NCBI GenBank assembly: GCA_902773895.1
Contig: CACYGB010000002.1
Location: 1-61,134, forward strand
Direction: 5' to 3'
Source of the DNA: an uncultured Eubacteriales bacterium
Lineage (GTDB): Bacteria > Bacillota > Clostridia > Christensenellales > Aristaeellaceae
DNA: 61,134 nucleotides
Part shown: positions 46,724 through 54,885 of the stretch, piece after piece
Position numbering within the stretch: position 1 is the first letter of the stretch
Layout: each line of letters opens with the position of its first letter
Notes under the pieces: generated by a model
What the model was told of the DNA's origin: nothing
What the model saw: only the letters and a program-made list of their open reading frames with translations
The model's database searches: none
Program-made: the position numbers and the translations under genes

Positions 46724-48031
46724 ATGCGGGGAAAACGCGGGGTTTCATTTGGAACGATCCTGACTCTGCTTTTGACGGCCGCGGTCATCGCCGGCTGCGT
46801 GGTTGTGTTTGCCAAAATTGAAACGGGAAATCCCCGCGCGCACATGAGCGCCCAGAAGGTGTTCGGCCTGATGGGCGATGCGCTGAACGGCACCACCCCG
46901 GTCCCGGTTCCCGAAGCCACTGTGCGCACTGTTACGGTAACGCTGGCCCCGGCGCCGTCGCCCACCGCAGCGCCCCATAAAACCACACAGGCGCCAAAGA
47001 AAAAAACCGACGCCCATTCGTTCACACTCACCGTAGGCGGTCTGGTGGCTTTTGAAAGCGAGATTTCCGACTCCGTATACAACAAAAGCCAAAAGACCTT
47101 CAACTATAAAGATATTCTTTCGCTGATCCGGGAGAAAATGGACGGCGACATGAACCTGATTTCCCTGGGTCAGGTCATCAACACGGAAGACCAGAAATAC
47201 GGCGACGTCCTGGCGCCCCAGTCTATCGTTGCCGGCATCAAGGCGGCCGGGATCGACGACGTGCTGCTGAACACCAGCCACGTGCTGGATCAGGATATTC
47301 AGGGTGTGAACGGCACCGTGTCCTCCCTGACCAAGGAAGGGCTTTCCTGCGGCGGCGTTACCGCCGGCAGCGCCCAGCAAAACCGCATGATCCAGCTCAA
47401 CGGGGCAAAAATTGCCCTGCTGGCCTATACGGAAAGCCTGACGGCCAAGGGCAAGATCAACCGGGAAAAGCAGCCTAAGGTGATGACGCTGTATTCCCAG
47501 CAGCAGGCGCAAAAGGATCTGGCCGCCGCCCGGAAGAACGGCGCAGACTTCATCATCGTCAGCATGTACTGGGGAAAAAAGGATACCACCGGCATTACCA
47601 GCGCCATGCGCAGCACCGCCGCTTTTCTGGCCGAAAACGGCGCTGACCTGGTTCTGGGGTATCAGCCCAGCCGGGTGCTGCCCATGGAAACCATGTCCGT
47701 TCCCGATGAAAACGGCATCCAGCGGCAATGCCTGATCGCCTATTCCATGGGCACGCTGCTGGGCGAGTCCCGGGAAAAGTACGACATTTCCGGCATCTTG
47801 CTGCATCTGAAAGTCTCCTGCAGCAGCAACGGAGCTGAATATGATCTGATGGAATACACACCCACCTACATCTGCCGACAGAAAATCAGCAGCAAGATCC
47901 AGTACCGGGTCGTCAGCGCCCTGGACGCGCCACCGGACTTCATGGAAGCCAAGCAGAAGGAATACATGGCCAACGCCCTCAAGCGCATCCGCACCACGCT
48001 GGAAAGCAGCCCGGTGACCGAACGGAAATAA
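46724..48031 (+). CDS. Membrane-anchored CapA-like protein lacking the metal-ligand motifs
   Basis: An N-terminal membrane segment (about 8-30) and a Pro/Thr/Ala linker precede a CapA/metallophosphoesterase-like domain. The family ligand motifs are altered: GG where GD is expected, NTSH for NNH, MYWGKKDT for the usual LHGGxEY and GYQPSRV for GHHPHV. The fold may remain while metal catalysis is lost. It starts 2 bases after hom. A second, intact CapA-like gene lies at 54949. The role is unknown. Confidence 0.72.
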   Translation: MRGKRGVSFGTILTLLLTAAVIAGCVVVFAKIETGNPRAHMSAQKVFGLMGDALNGTTPVPVPEATVRTVTVTLAPAPSPTAAPHKTTQAPKKKTDAHSFTLTVGGLVAFESEISDSVYNKSQKTFNYKDILSLIREKMDGDMNLISLGQVINTEDQKYGDVLAPQSIVAGIKAAGIDDVLLNTSHVLDQDIQGVNGTVSSLTKEGLSCGGVTAGSAQQNRMIQLNGAKIALLAYTESLTAKGKINREKQPKVMTLYSQQQAQKDLAAARKNGADFIIVSMYWGKKDTTGITSAMRSTAAFLAENGADLVLGYQPSRVLPMETMSVPDENGIQRQCLIAYSMGTLLGESREKYDISGILLHLKVSCSSNGAEYDLMEYTPTYICRQKISSKIQYRVVSALDAPPDFMEAKQKEYMANALKRIRTTLESSPVTERK

Positions 48032-50942: not shown

Positions 50943-51006
50943 AAAAATACCCCCATCCTGGTTCTGCTTTGAGCGGAAACGCGCCGTTTTATACCCAGGA
51001 TGAGGG
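50943..51006 (-). terminator. Terminator of the ZorAB-like/VanX operon
   Basis: On the minus strand CCCTCATCCTGG and CCAGGATGGGGG (51006-50995 and 50961-50950) form a 12-bp stem with one G-U pair, followed by TATTTTTAT. The stem also holds the ribosome site of the gpr relic. Confidence 0.65.
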
Positions 51007-51012
51007 AATGAT

Positions 51013-51714
51013 TTATTTTACCGGAAAGTTGAAGCCTTTTTTCGGAAAGGGTTCCTTGATCAATTTGTAGTGCCACCACTCGTGCTCAAAGCACCGGAAG
51101 CCGTGATGCTCCATAGCGTTTTTGAGAATCAAACGGTTGGCTTCCTGCAGAGGCGTGATACCCTTGGCTCCGTGCCAGGCCAGTTTCCCGAAATAATCAA
51201 ATCCGGTTCCCATGTCCAGCTCGTTGCCGTCCAGATCGGTGATGGTCAAATCCACAGCGCTGCCCCGGCAATGGCTGGAATTCCGGGCAATATAGCCCTG
51301 GTCCACCAGCAGGGATTTCCGGGCATATTCAGGATAGAACTCCGCCTGCATCCGCATGTCGTCAGCGTCCTGGCTCCAGCGGACGAAATGCCGCACGGCG
51401 GACTGGGGTCGGTAGGCGTCGAAAATCTTGAGCCTGTACCCCATGGCGCGCAGTTCATCCGCAGCTTCTTTCAGGGCATCCGCAGCCTTTTCCGTCATGA
51501 CCGCGTACGGCGCTTCGTATCCGTCGATTACATCCCCGACAAAGTTGTGCGTTCCGGCATAGCGAATATCCAGGATCACATCCGGGATAACCTCATGCAC
51601 ATAGCAGAATCCATCCGGCAATTCTTGTGCAGGCGCCGTTTCCGCCTGCGCCGCCGTCAGCAGCGAAATCATCATGATCAACGTCATCATCATCCCTTTA
51701 GCCCGCGTATTCAT
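51013..51714 (-). CDS. Exported D-Ala-D-Ala dipeptidase, VanX-like (M15D)
   Basis: A signal peptide (about 1-24) precedes an M15D zinc domain. The motif S-x-H-x2-G-x3-D is seen in SSHCRGSAVDLTI, the second His and acid in EHEWWHYKL, and the early FDAYRPQSAV matches VanX. VanX cleaves the dipeptide D-Ala-D-Ala in the cytoplasm, but this exported version would act on wall-derived peptides, as in some DdpX-like enzymes. Its start overlaps the preceding gene by 17 bases, with GAGGTGA upstream, so it is part of the ZorAB-like operon. Confidence 0.85.
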   Translation of the reverse strand: MNTRAKGMMMTLIMMISLLTAAQAETAPAQELPDGFCYVHEVIPDVILDIRYAGTHNFVGDVIDGYEAPYAVMTEKAADALKEAADELRAMGYRLKIFDAYRPQSAVRHFVRWSQDADDMRMQAEFYPEYARKSLLVDQGYIARNSSHCRGSAVDLTITDLDGNELDMGTGFDYFGKLAWHGAKGITPLQEANRLILKNAMEHHGFRCFEHEWWHYKLIKEPFPKKGFNFPVK

Positions 51715-52195
51715 AGGTATATTTCACCTCGTGCGGATGCCCCCACAAATAATACGTTACACGCAGATCCCGTACCGGATGGGGCGTTCCCTTCGTCAGC
51801 AGCACGCACCAGATGTCCCTGGTTTCCCCCGGCGCAATTTTGACTTCGCCCGTTTCCCCGTAAAACAGCACGTCGCTGCTCATGGGCGCGATTTGAACCT
51901 CCACCATTTCCGCCTGCACCAGTCCCTGGTTTTTCAGGCGCAGCGTATAGATATAGTAGCTGTATTCTTCGCTGCCGCCCAGATCCCCTTTTTTCAGCAC
52001 AGTGCCCAGCAGGCTTTGCTTTTGCACGGCCTCCCGCAGCGCGGCAAACTCCGCCGCGCGCTCTGTTGCCGGCACCATCTGCACGCTTTTTCCGATTACC
52101 TTCAGGTCAGTGTTGAAAAGCCCGTACCCGACCACGCCGGCCAGAGCTATCAGCAGCAGCATCAGCAAGATCGCCGCTTTTTTCAATCTTTTCAA
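51698..52195 (-). CDS. Membrane-anchored protein of unknown function
   Basis: One N-terminal membrane helix (about 6-25) is followed by a domain of about 140 residues that looks like a beta-sandwich, with segments EYSYYIYTLRLKNQGLVQAE and VKIAPGETRDIWCVLL resembling CARD-B or DUF4352-type folds. It is expected to face outside. It starts 7 bases after the ZorB-like stop and overlaps the dipeptidase gene, so it is likely part of the same assembly. No family is claimed. Confidence 0.6.
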   Translation of the reverse strand: MKRLKKAAILLMLLLIALAGVVGYGLFNTDLKVIGKSVQMVPATERAAEFAALREAVQKQSLLGTVLKKGDLGGSEEYSYYIYTLRLKNQGLVQAEMVEVQIAPMSSDVLFYGETGEVKIAPGETRDIWCVLLTKGTPHPVRDLRVTYYLWGHPHEVKYTYEYAG

Positions 52196-52202
52196 GCCTC
52201 CA

Positions 52203-53198
52203 TCACTGCATCTGGGACAGTATCCGGTTCATTTCCTGAATCATTTCCGTATCCTTCAGGCGGAACTTGAATTCCACCCGGCGGGATGCATCCCGGTTTA
52301 CCGTACCGTTCTTGTTGTAAATCAGGTCGGAAAAGCTGCGGCCTTTCGCGGTCAGAAGATCCTGGAATTTATCCACCTGGTTGCTTCTGAGAATGCTCAG
52401 ACAGTATTCGGCCACGGAAAGCGCGCGGTTCTGGCTCAGCTTCAGGTTGGTCATGTAGGTTCCCTGATCGTCTGTGTGCCCTTCGATGATGATTTCGCCC
52501 ACATAATCCACGTATTCGGGCTGCATCAGCACGCCCAGGTACACCGGCAGGAAACGGCTGAGCAGCTGCCTGCCTTCATCCTTGATGGTACTGGAATTGG
52601 ATTCGAAAAATACGGTGCTCTGCAGCACGATGTCGCCGGTGGTCTTGTCCACATCCGCCTTCAGGTTGGCTTTTTTCAAGGCCTGGCTCAGTTCCTGAAT
52701 AATTTTGGTCCGGATGCCGATCATATCGTCAATGCGCTTCTGATACGTCAGCATTTCGGCTTTCTGCGCGTCCAGCACCGTCTGCATGGCGGCCAGTTTG
52801 TCCGCCTGCTCCTGCAGGGCAAGCTGCAACAGGGCCTGTTCTTCTTCCTTGGTTTTCAGGGCGGATTGGGCAGCATGCAGGTCATTTTCCTGCTGGTCCA
52901 GCTGGATCTGAATGGCGGCCAGTTCTTCCTGCTTGCCCATCAGCGTCACGTTGGCGGCTTCCAGTTCTTCTTCGCGCTGCACCAGGGTAATGGTGGCCCG
53001 GTCCAGCTCGGCCTTTTGCTCGTTCAGCTGCTGGGTTTTGATTTCCAGCATGCTGTAATATTGATATACGCTGTAAACCACGGCCAGCACGAATACCAGC
53101 AGCAGCGACGCCATCATGTCCGAATAAGAAATCCAGTGGGAGCCGCTGTCGCCGCTGCGGGGGCCGCGGCCGCTGCGTCTGCGGGATAGACTGCTCAT
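52203..53198 (-). CDS. MotB/ZorB-like stator protein with OmpA peptidoglycan-binding domain
   Basis: A basic N-terminus leads to the motif SYSDMMASLLLVFVLA (about 24-39), where the Asp of the single membrane helix is the expected ion-carrying residue. A long coiled coil follows (about 52-155). The OmpA-like domain then shows VFFESNSSTIKDEG, IIIEGHTDDQGTY and the arginine pair in DASRRVEF. This is the MotB/ZorB plan, but with a longer coiled coil than MotB. The gene starts one base after the ZorA-like stop. Confidence 0.85.
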   Translation of the reverse strand: MSSLSRRRSGRGPRSGDSGSHWISYSDMMASLLLVFVLAVVYSVYQYYSMLEIKTQQLNEQKAELDRATITLVQREEELEAANVTLMGKQEELAAIQIQLDQQENDLHAAQSALKTKEEEQALLQLALQEQADKLAAMQTVLDAQKAEMLTYQKRIDDMIGIRTKIIQELSQALKKANLKADVDKTTGDIVLQSTVFFESNSSTIKDEGRQLLSRFLPVYLGVLMQPEYVDYVGEIIIEGHTDDQGTYMTNLKLSQNRALSVAEYCLSILRSNQVDKFQDLLTAKGRSFSDLIYNKNGTVNRDASRRVEFKFRLKDTEMIQEMNRILSQMQ

Positions 53199-53199
53199 A

Positions 53200-54750
53200 T
53201 CAATCGGCCTCCGTCGGATCCGTCTTTCCGATGGCTGCGGTCATACCGGTCAGGGCGCGCTGCAGCTGGGAAATGGCAGTGATGCAGTTCTCGGTTTCCT
53301 GACGGTACTGGGCCGCCTGATCCGGCATGCTGCCGGAAATCGTTTTCAGGTCATCCAGCTTTTCATTCATGGCGCTCAGCACGCTGTGGATGTTCTCGTC
53401 AAACATGCCCAGCGCCCGGGAGAACCCGCCGGTAATATCCTTCACAAAACTGGTGTACGTATCCGACAGTTCCTTGGCGGATGCGTCCATCTGCCCGGCG
53501 ATGCGGCCGGCAGTGTTGATGGAGCCTTCGTTCTGCTCCCGCACCGTGTTCAGCACGCCTGTGCTCCACACCGCGTAATCCTGCATGGTCTTTTGCAATT
53601 CTATTTGGGCGTCCTTCAGCTTCTGGAGGAAGTCCGCCTGTTCCTGAGAGGCGGTCATGATGCCGGACAGCACCTGGGAGCCGTGGGTCAGGAACGCGCC
53701 GCTGCTGTCCTGCGCCTGTTCGATGGTGCCAATGTAGTTTTCAAAGCGTTCCATCACCCGCTGGGTCACGCTCTGCACCTGGGCCATGCCGGTCAGGATC
53801 TGATCCGCGGCAGCCATGGTCCGCTCCAGGGAATCATAGGAAACGGACTGCGCCTGGTTGATGGCAGACAGGGTCTGGCCCAGCTGCACAAACTGGTTGC
53901 CCAGGGAACGGTTCATCTGGGCGATAAACTGGTTGGCAATGTTGTTGACGCCGTCGATCTGTGCCTGGGTCTGGCCCAGGATAAACTGGTTCATGCTCTG
54001 GGCCACCGGCACCAGGGACTGCTCCACCGAAGACAGGATGCCCTCGCTGACGCGCGCGCTCAGATCGCCGCTCATCCGGCGCAGCATCGCCGCCCGGTCC
54101 TCCTGCTGGCAGATCAACTGCACCGTATCCTCCAGGGGCTTTTGCATCACCAGATCGGAAAAAGCGTCGTTAAAATCGTCAATGGCGCGGGTGGCGCTTC
54201 CGTAAGCCATCCGGTTGAGCATATTAAACACCAGGGAGCACGCCACGCCGGCGATGGACGTGGTAAACGCGTACGTCATGCCGCCGATCAGCTGGGGAAT
54301 GCTTTCCATGGTTTTGGCCGCGTCCGTCATATCCAGTCCGCCCAGGCCCCGCATCAGGCCGATGAAGGTGCCCAGGATGCCCAGACTGGTCAACAGGCTG
54401 GGAACCACCTCGGCCAGCTGCGCGTGGCCCACCGCATAAATCACCGTATCATCGTTAACGTAGTCTTCCACGTTGCAGTTCAGCCCCCGGGCATCCAGCT
54501 GCTCCGCGTTCACCAGGAACCGCCGCCACGGCCCCTGCATTTCCCGGCCCAGGAACAGGGCGTCCTGCCATACAGGCCGGCCGTCGCCGCTGTTGGTTTC
54601 CAGCGAGCGGATGCCGCGCCGAAGCTTCCCGGCGGCGCGGCGCACCGGCAGCACACATTTGGCAATCCCGATAACAGCTACCAGCGCGATAGCCAGATAA
54701 ATCAAAAAATCCGTTACATTCGCAGCGAGGCTTCTTAAAATATCATTCAC
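53200..54750 (-). CDS. MotA/ExbB/ZorA-like stator protein with long helical tail
   Basis: A first membrane helix (about 14-33), then a pair at about 110-135 and 150-175 with the signature LTSLGILGTFIGLMRGL and YAFTTSIAGVACSLVF, define the MotA/TolQ/ExbB channel family. The final 330 residues are predicted helical and rich in Gln, Asn and Ala, the hallmark of ZorA-type proteins, not MotA. GTG 54750 follows AAGGAG by 8 bases. Flagellar genes are absent. The combination predicts a proton- or sodium-driven complex with a cytoplasmic stalk. Confidence 0.85.
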   Translation of the reverse strand: MNDILRSLAANVTDFLIYLAIALVAVIGIAKCVLPVRRAAGKLRRGIRSLETNSGDGRPVWQDALFLGREMQGPWRRFLVNAEQLDARGLNCNVEDYVNDDTVIYAVGHAQLAEVVPSLLTSLGILGTFIGLMRGLGGLDMTDAAKTMESIPQLIGGMTYAFTTSIAGVACSLVFNMLNRMAYGSATRAIDDFNDAFSDLVMQKPLEDTVQLICQQEDRAAMLRRMSGDLSARVSEGILSSVEQSLVPVAQSMNQFILGQTQAQIDGVNNIANQFIAQMNRSLGNQFVQLGQTLSAINQAQSVSYDSLERTMAAADQILTGMAQVQSVTQRVMERFENYIGTIEQAQDSSGAFLTHGSQVLSGIMTASQEQADFLQKLKDAQIELQKTMQDYAVWSTGVLNTVREQNEGSINTAGRIAGQMDASAKELSDTYTSFVKDITGGFSRALGMFDENIHSVLSAMNEKLDDLKTISGSMPDQAAQYRQETENCITAISQLQRALTGMTAAIGKTDPTEAD

Positions 54751-54789
54751 AGGCCCCACTCCTTTCCACACGGGTATGATCTCCTTCTT

Positions 54790-54818
54790 ATTGTAACGGA
54801 TTTCTACTTAAAAAGCAA
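54790..54818 (-). promoter_or_regulatory. Promoter of the ZorAB-like operon
   Basis: On the minus strand TTGCTT (54813-54818) and TACAAT (54790-54795) are 17 bp apart. Confidence 0.75.
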
Positions 54819-54885
54819 TAAATTTGTAATAAATAATTCCTTTTCAACAGAAAAATTTACGATTCGTCACGTTTTCTCCATGAAT

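Follow-up and report, generated by a model that had tools for sequence, protein, structure and literature searches.

Background

The 5:2 motors known so far drive flagella, gliding, type 9 secretion, Ton/Tol transport and Zorya defence, according to the accessible parts of PMC11890865 and PMC12505986. Zorya requires the motor Asp and residues of the OmpA domain (PMC11890865), and the cytoplasmic domain of Zorya ZorA has an extra β-sheet (PMC12505986). Here we analyze a stretch of 61,134 nucleotides (contig CACYGB010000002.1 of assembly GCA_902773895.1, hereafter the window) from an uncultured Eubacteriales bacterium of the Aristaeellaceae, in which a minus-strand operon (50943-54818) encodes a ZorAB-type motor, a membrane-anchored protein designated P3 and a VanX-like peptidase. 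The motor turns out to be a core gene of the family, and we see about an even chance that a Zorya-related motor has been repurposed there as a machine of the envelope or wall, to which some lineages have added the peptidase. Zorya and stator diversity is treated in PMC11890865, PMC12505986 and PMC8565338, the accessible parts of which do not describe this family clade, and a literature search that covered mostly titles and abstract openings, with few subscription papers, found no description of a ZorAB-P3-VanX operon. In all counts, family, genus, order and phylum are those of the genome from which the window comes; its close relatives are metagenome-assembled genomes (MAGs) of rumen, gut and other Clostridia, some of them labelled Christensenella or Christensenellaceae.

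The operon and its products

Four co-directional genes are flanked by a promoter and a terminator-like hairpin:

54790..54818, minus strand: sigma-70-type promoter TTGCTT-17-TACAAT, read directly
53200..54771, minus strand: ZorA-like channel subunit of a 5:2 motor with a long helical cytoplasmic tail, 523 aa from a GTG codon (PADLOC ZorA1, 5e-23)
52203..53198, minus strand: ZorB-like subunit with a transmembrane (TM) segment carrying the membrane Asp27, a coiled-coil stalk and an OmpA-type peptidoglycan-binding domain, 331 aa (PADLOC ZorB1, 4e-70)
51698..52195, minus strand: P3, an N-terminal TM anchor and an Ig-like β-sandwich, 165 aa from a TTG start (AlphaFold2)
51013..51714, minus strand: VanX-like M15 peptidase with a signal peptide and with the catalytic motifs and YRP intact, 233 aa (PF01427, 2e-39)
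50943..51006, minus strand: terminator-like hairpin and T tract, 12-bp stem and 33-base loop (fold -27 kcal/mol, z -3.9)

The ZorA and ZorB genes are separated by 1 base and ZorB and P3 by 7 bases, while P3 and VanX overlap by 17 bases. Upstream of ZorA, 24/24 loci of the genus have a loose pattern TTG..-TA..AT, aligned at the same place as the window promoter, and an ATTACA element upstream of the promoter is kept across the genus. The hairpin retains a z of -3.4 when a slightly longer stretch is folded; a simple consensus-site scan with a loop limit of 8 listed neither the promoter nor the hairpin. An earlier note on this DNA, made from its letters alone, had proposed the promoter, the four tightly packed genes and the terminator-like hairpin, all of which the open reading frames, the genus-wide promoter pattern and the fold confirm. 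A repeated RTTRCAAT-like element (54790-54835), also conserved in the genus, overlaps the -35 box and is perhaps a response-regulator operator.

The ZorA-like protein matches PF01618 (4e-5) besides PADLOC ZorA1. A ribosome-binding site conserved in relatives suggests that translation more likely starts at the GTG at 54750 (516 aa) than at 54771. Among solved chains the nearest by sequence are type I ZorA (8vvn, 1e-13), and the nearest folds to the AlphaFold2 model are ZorA chains (8qyk, 8qyd, 8qyh, 8qyy and 8vvn, E 6e-8 to 3e-5), with TolQ/ExbB folds ranking below them at 7e-3 or worse. Against NCBIfam at E up to 1 no MotA, TolQ or ExbB match was obtained, the matches being confined to ZorA families and two weak hits to unrelated families; the best Zorya score is 66.4, below the curated cut-off of 100. 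The model has a mean pLDDT of 72, with residues 21-210 at 81-96 by blocks, and at this weak overall quality it shows no strand that would correspond to the extra β-sheet of Zorya ZorA. T135, T171 and S172 are invariant in 31/31 family rows.

The ZorB-like protein matches PF00691 (OmpA, 8e-10) and, below its cut-off, MotB_plug; in NCBIfam, ZorB1 is best, with a score of 63 against a curated cut-off of 400, and MotB-type and OmpA families are weaker. Together with the ZorA matches this bears out the ZorAB-like identity assigned in the earlier note. Asp27 in the membrane and D243, N251 and R258 in the OmpA domain are invariant in 27/27 rows. The stalk between the TM segment and the OmpA domain is 109 residues long in the window and 88-186 residues in 20 family rows, versus 7-25 in 13 Zorya-type rows (6 with partner genes scanned, 3 with a partner annotated and 4 unchecked).

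Variants of the pair occur within the family. At L199 (4484-6652) a single open frame of 722 aa encodes both ZorA and ZorB, and P3 and VanX come after it. Some family genomes have second ZorAB-like pairs (L195, 15305-18765; L196 and L197) or a ZorB-like gene alone (L198); the ZorB frames of these second copies are much longer (545-809 aa), and one family ZorB paralogue has a stalk of 274 residues.

P3 has no Pfam or PADLOC match at E up to 1 and a single NCBIfam match at 0.1. Its AlphaFold2 model, built on a 56-row alignment, is confident (pLDDT 94.5) and consists of one TM helix and an Ig-like sandwich, which is predicted from the N-terminal charges to face outward.

The VanX-like protein is homologous over its whole length to VanX of known structure (PDB 1r44, 5e-45), though its NCBIfam VanX score of 203.6 bits is below the curated cut-off of 320. 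Loose patterns for the VanX metal site and the YRP motif were both found in 43/44 linked and unlinked VanX-like copies. A hydrophobic leader is present in 12/13 non-fused operonic copies outside genus g7. In two genomes of g7, independent MAGs (L156 and L158, the same loci as L200 and L201), P3 and VanX form one frame, and in the other two a leaderless VanX adjoins P3. Of all the evidence, the fusions tie the peptidase most strongly to the motor module.

A family-core motor

The ZorA-like gene is present in 28/29 genomes of the genus and the ZorB-like gene in 114/120 genomes and 47/50 genera of the family (E up to 0.001). An order sample of 248 genomes included 18 of the family; in the 230 others ZorB was found in 5 (E up to 1e-10) and ZorA in 2 (E up to 1e-8), and in the phylum outside the family ZorA was found in 12/397 genomes. 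Ten neighbourhoods of the phylum ZorA matches were fetched and the neighbours from six scanned; ZorC, ZorD or ZorE was present in 6/6. ZorAB is thus a family-core gene and not a sporadic defence island, and the relatives checked outside the family are patchy Zorya systems. No ZorA relative was found on viral contigs. In five of the 40 loci fetched, from five genera, ZorA has HPrK, ROK or AsnS genes at most a few genes away, as in the window, which hints at vertical descent.

In a tree of ZorA plus ZorB (36 rows) the family occupies one side of a branch among Zorya-type rows, with support 93/100. The tree is unrooted; evolution may have run from Zorya to the family motor or the reverse, and the motor may be either repurposed from that of Zorya or sister to it. 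FliF was found in 0/120 family genomes (control rings in 4/14), and the family motor is for that reason no flagellar stator. The ZorA-type best matches likewise speak against a place inside flagellar MotAB, which the earlier note would have counted as a refutation. The term "orphan" in that note understates a motor that is family-wide and a form in its own right.

The immediate neighbourhood was surveyed in 41 loci of the family (the window and 40 chosen mostly as one per genus). After ZorB, P3 follows in 25 and another protein, P3b, also anchored and about 180 aa long, in 11, with neither in 5, while VanX is present in 6, all among the 25 with P3. A set of 80 named loci comprises 45 with P3, 21 with P3 and VanX, 2 with the P3-VanX fusion, 8 with neither and 4 without ZorB; the last 4 and five of the 8 stop at a contig end, and the remaining three (L126, L132, L133) are assigned to genus g10. 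The common unit is therefore ZorA-ZorB, usually with P3, to which the peptidase is added in some lineages. The earlier note had taken all four genes as one system, and by the refuting condition that it set itself their co-occurrence fails across the family (VanX in 6/41 and P3 in 25/41 loci) but holds in genus g1, where 18/19 named loci with P3 carry the whole set, and in three further genera.

The two anchored proteins differ in their limits. P3 was found in 109/120 family genomes (E up to 0.001) and in 0/187 other genomes of the order, P3b in 113/120 (E up to 0.001) and in 65/187, there without ZorAB; because of this difference outside the family it is P3, and not P3b, that shares the limits of the motor. 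P3b as the true third partner was rejected, since it is present order-wide without ZorAB. A P3b copy lies elsewhere in the genome of the window (G000:C56:10635-11171). In 6/10 family loci with P3b placed in this way the next gene belongs to one cluster, whose scanned member is a tRNA-dihydrouridine synthase.

Proposed function and alternatives

We propose that in this family of gut Clostridia without flagella a ZorA5B2 motor, a 5:2 assembly driven by ions, may have been fixed as a chromosomal house-keeping machine of the envelope. Ion flow past the Asp of ZorB and the Ser/Thr ring of ZorA would make ZorA turn or flex around ZorB and so generate torque; the long coiled-coil stalk would carry ZorB to the wall, where its OmpA domain would grip peptidoglycan, and the ZorA tail could couple the motor to the cytoplasm. 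P3, as an outward membrane-anchored β-sandwich, would in most genera be a motor accessory or adaptor. In four genera the peptidase of the operon, exported or fused to P3, would cleave peptides in or near the wall at the motor, with D-Ala-D-Ala or the wall stem peptide as candidate substrates. Peptidoglycan-binding residues in the motor, a presumably outward domain restricted to the family and, in some lineages, a peptidase fused to that domain together fit a wall machine, and the operon as a whole suggests a role in cell-wall upkeep. Wall sensing or remodelling, one of the roles offered in the earlier note, gains plausibility from the P3-VanX fusions.

Several observations weigh against this proposal. 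The branch support of 93 falls below 95, and in a first, badly aligned tree of ZorA only, with E. coli MotA, TolQ and ExbB, the family did not form one clade (an end branch reached 7.4, which makes that tree unusable for kinship with MotA). The stalk is 91 residues long in two relatives from other families of the order. P3 was not found in 8/114 ZorB-bearing genomes, including all four of genus g10, is present in 3/6 family genomes without ZorB, and sits away from ZorAB in many genomes; mere adjacency is moreover weak proof, because P3b replaces P3 in 11/41 loci and yet is order-wide. By comparison of coordinates VanX lies by the motor in 12/114 ZorB-bearing genomes, from 4 genera (g1 5/5, g16 2/2, g5 1/1 and g7 4/4 genomes). 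Three non-fused operonic copies (L061, from g1, L073 and L178) lack the leader and might be cytoplasmic. Control of ZorA by a WalR-type regulator was considered and rejected: the box TGTWAH-N5-TGTWAH (consensus from the accessible part of PMC9210968), with at most 1 mismatch, occurs in 41/119 ZorA upstream regions versus 10/373 controls, but the spacing test failed, with 7/39 at N5 versus 8/39 at N3 (one locus per genome) and N8 likewise raised (20/95 outside g1, 13/24 within it); N5 is clearly kept in g1 only (17/24, versus 24/95 outside).

The main alternative takes the motor, with or without P3, as an envelope sensor or ion channel responding to tension or wall integrity, and VanX as a passenger that recycles D-Ala-D-Ala and makes no contact with the motor. 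It would explain why 35/41 family loci have no VanX in the operon, why 80/120 family genomes carry a VanX-like gene somewhere (E up to 1e-5) with only the 12 linked to the motor, and why three operonic copies are leaderless. The in-frame fusions in two independent MAGs speak against it, as do the overlap of VanX with P3 in the window and the convergent P3 and VanX neighbours found away from ZorAB in L312-L315, and we regard it as rather unlikely. The strict form of our own proposal, in which an ion-driven ZorAB-type motor positions or drives the VanX-like peptidase on the gripped wall through P3 and the flow of ions thereby powers the trimming of peptidoglycan peptides, is also doubtful, and we judge it unlikely; a whole genus without P3 and a third leaderless operonic VanX count against it. 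Were it to hold, it would be a new class of cell-wall machine, and Zorya would have its motor in common with a house-keeping system of the wall, being either the source of that motor or derived from it.

Phage defence is an unlikely role for the family motor, given its distribution and the missing partners. A Zorya-derived system could in principle have lost ZorC and ZorD and use P3, VanX or a protein encoded elsewhere in the genome as effector, and the closest relatives outside the family are indeed Zorya systems, with the motor Asp and OmpA residues that Zorya needs (PMC11890865, accessible part) conserved. Such a history sits badly with a motor spread through 114/120 genomes and 47/50 genera, unlike sporadic defence systems, and with the lack of partners: P3 and VanX have no PADLOC hit at E up to 1 and the four flanking genes no Zorya-partner hit at E up to 0.001, the rest of the genome not having been searched. 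We consider it highly improbable. The earlier note was right that no Zorya partner stands at the locus; its suggestion that defence might act by way of damage to the wall fits poorly with a gene that is core to the family. A surface-motility motor of the AglRQS gliding type would suit bacteria without FliF, and related 5:2 motors do drive gliding (PMC11890865, accessible part), but the operon contains neither an adhesin nor a track gene and a peptidase is an ill-fitting partner; we consider it very unlikely.

If the envelope-machine proposal is right, the 5:2 motor would have a further use, in Clostridia without FliF and linked to a wall-type peptidase through gene fusion. ZorAB profile hits alone would then be no marker of phage defence, since the PADLOC profiles match the family motor strongly. 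The family ZorAB also allows a direct test of two possible roles of the Zorya motor, sensing peptidoglycan and acting on it.

Neighbouring genes and a second stator

A PGA_cap-type gene (PF09587; 54880-56046 of the window) is divergent from the ZorA operon, and an open reading frame at 46724-48031 resembles it by eye.

Some genomes of the same genus encode a second stator (L192, 6072-12886; also L191, L193 and L194), in which a MotA/ZorA-like channel and a c-di-GMP phosphodiesterase domain of the EAL type (PF00563, 2e-53) form one protein. In L192, the only one of these loci scanned for gene content, the genes that come next encode a ZorB-like protein in which SpaA prealbumin-like domains take the place of OmpA, then a ParA/BcsQ-like ATPase and a VanZ-like protein. 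Identity over the EAL part is 74-98% in the three other loci fetched, and no description of a MotA-EAL stator was found in the literature, searched mostly by titles and abstract openings.

Comparison with known systems

With flagellar MotAB and the Tol/Exb transporters the family motor has the 5:2 channel superfamily in common (PMC12505986, accessible part), and with Zorya types II and III the ZorAB motor, ZorE, ZorF and ZorG not being at this locus. The peptidase shares whole-length homology and catalytic motifs with the D-Ala-D-Ala dipeptidase VanX; unlike VanX, most operonic copies carry a signal peptide or a P3 fusion, and the window copy stays below the NCBIfam cut-off. The closest likeness is to type I ZorAB (PDB 8qyd, 8vvn), with which the family motor shares the channel fold, the Ser/Thr and Asp residues, the OmpA domain, the long helical tail of ZorA, the gene order A-B and the nearest matches in both sequence and fold. 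It differs from type I in falling below the NCBIfam Zorya cut-offs, in having no adjacent ZorC or ZorD and in being family-core, with a longer ZorB stalk and with P3, and sometimes VanX, following in the operon.

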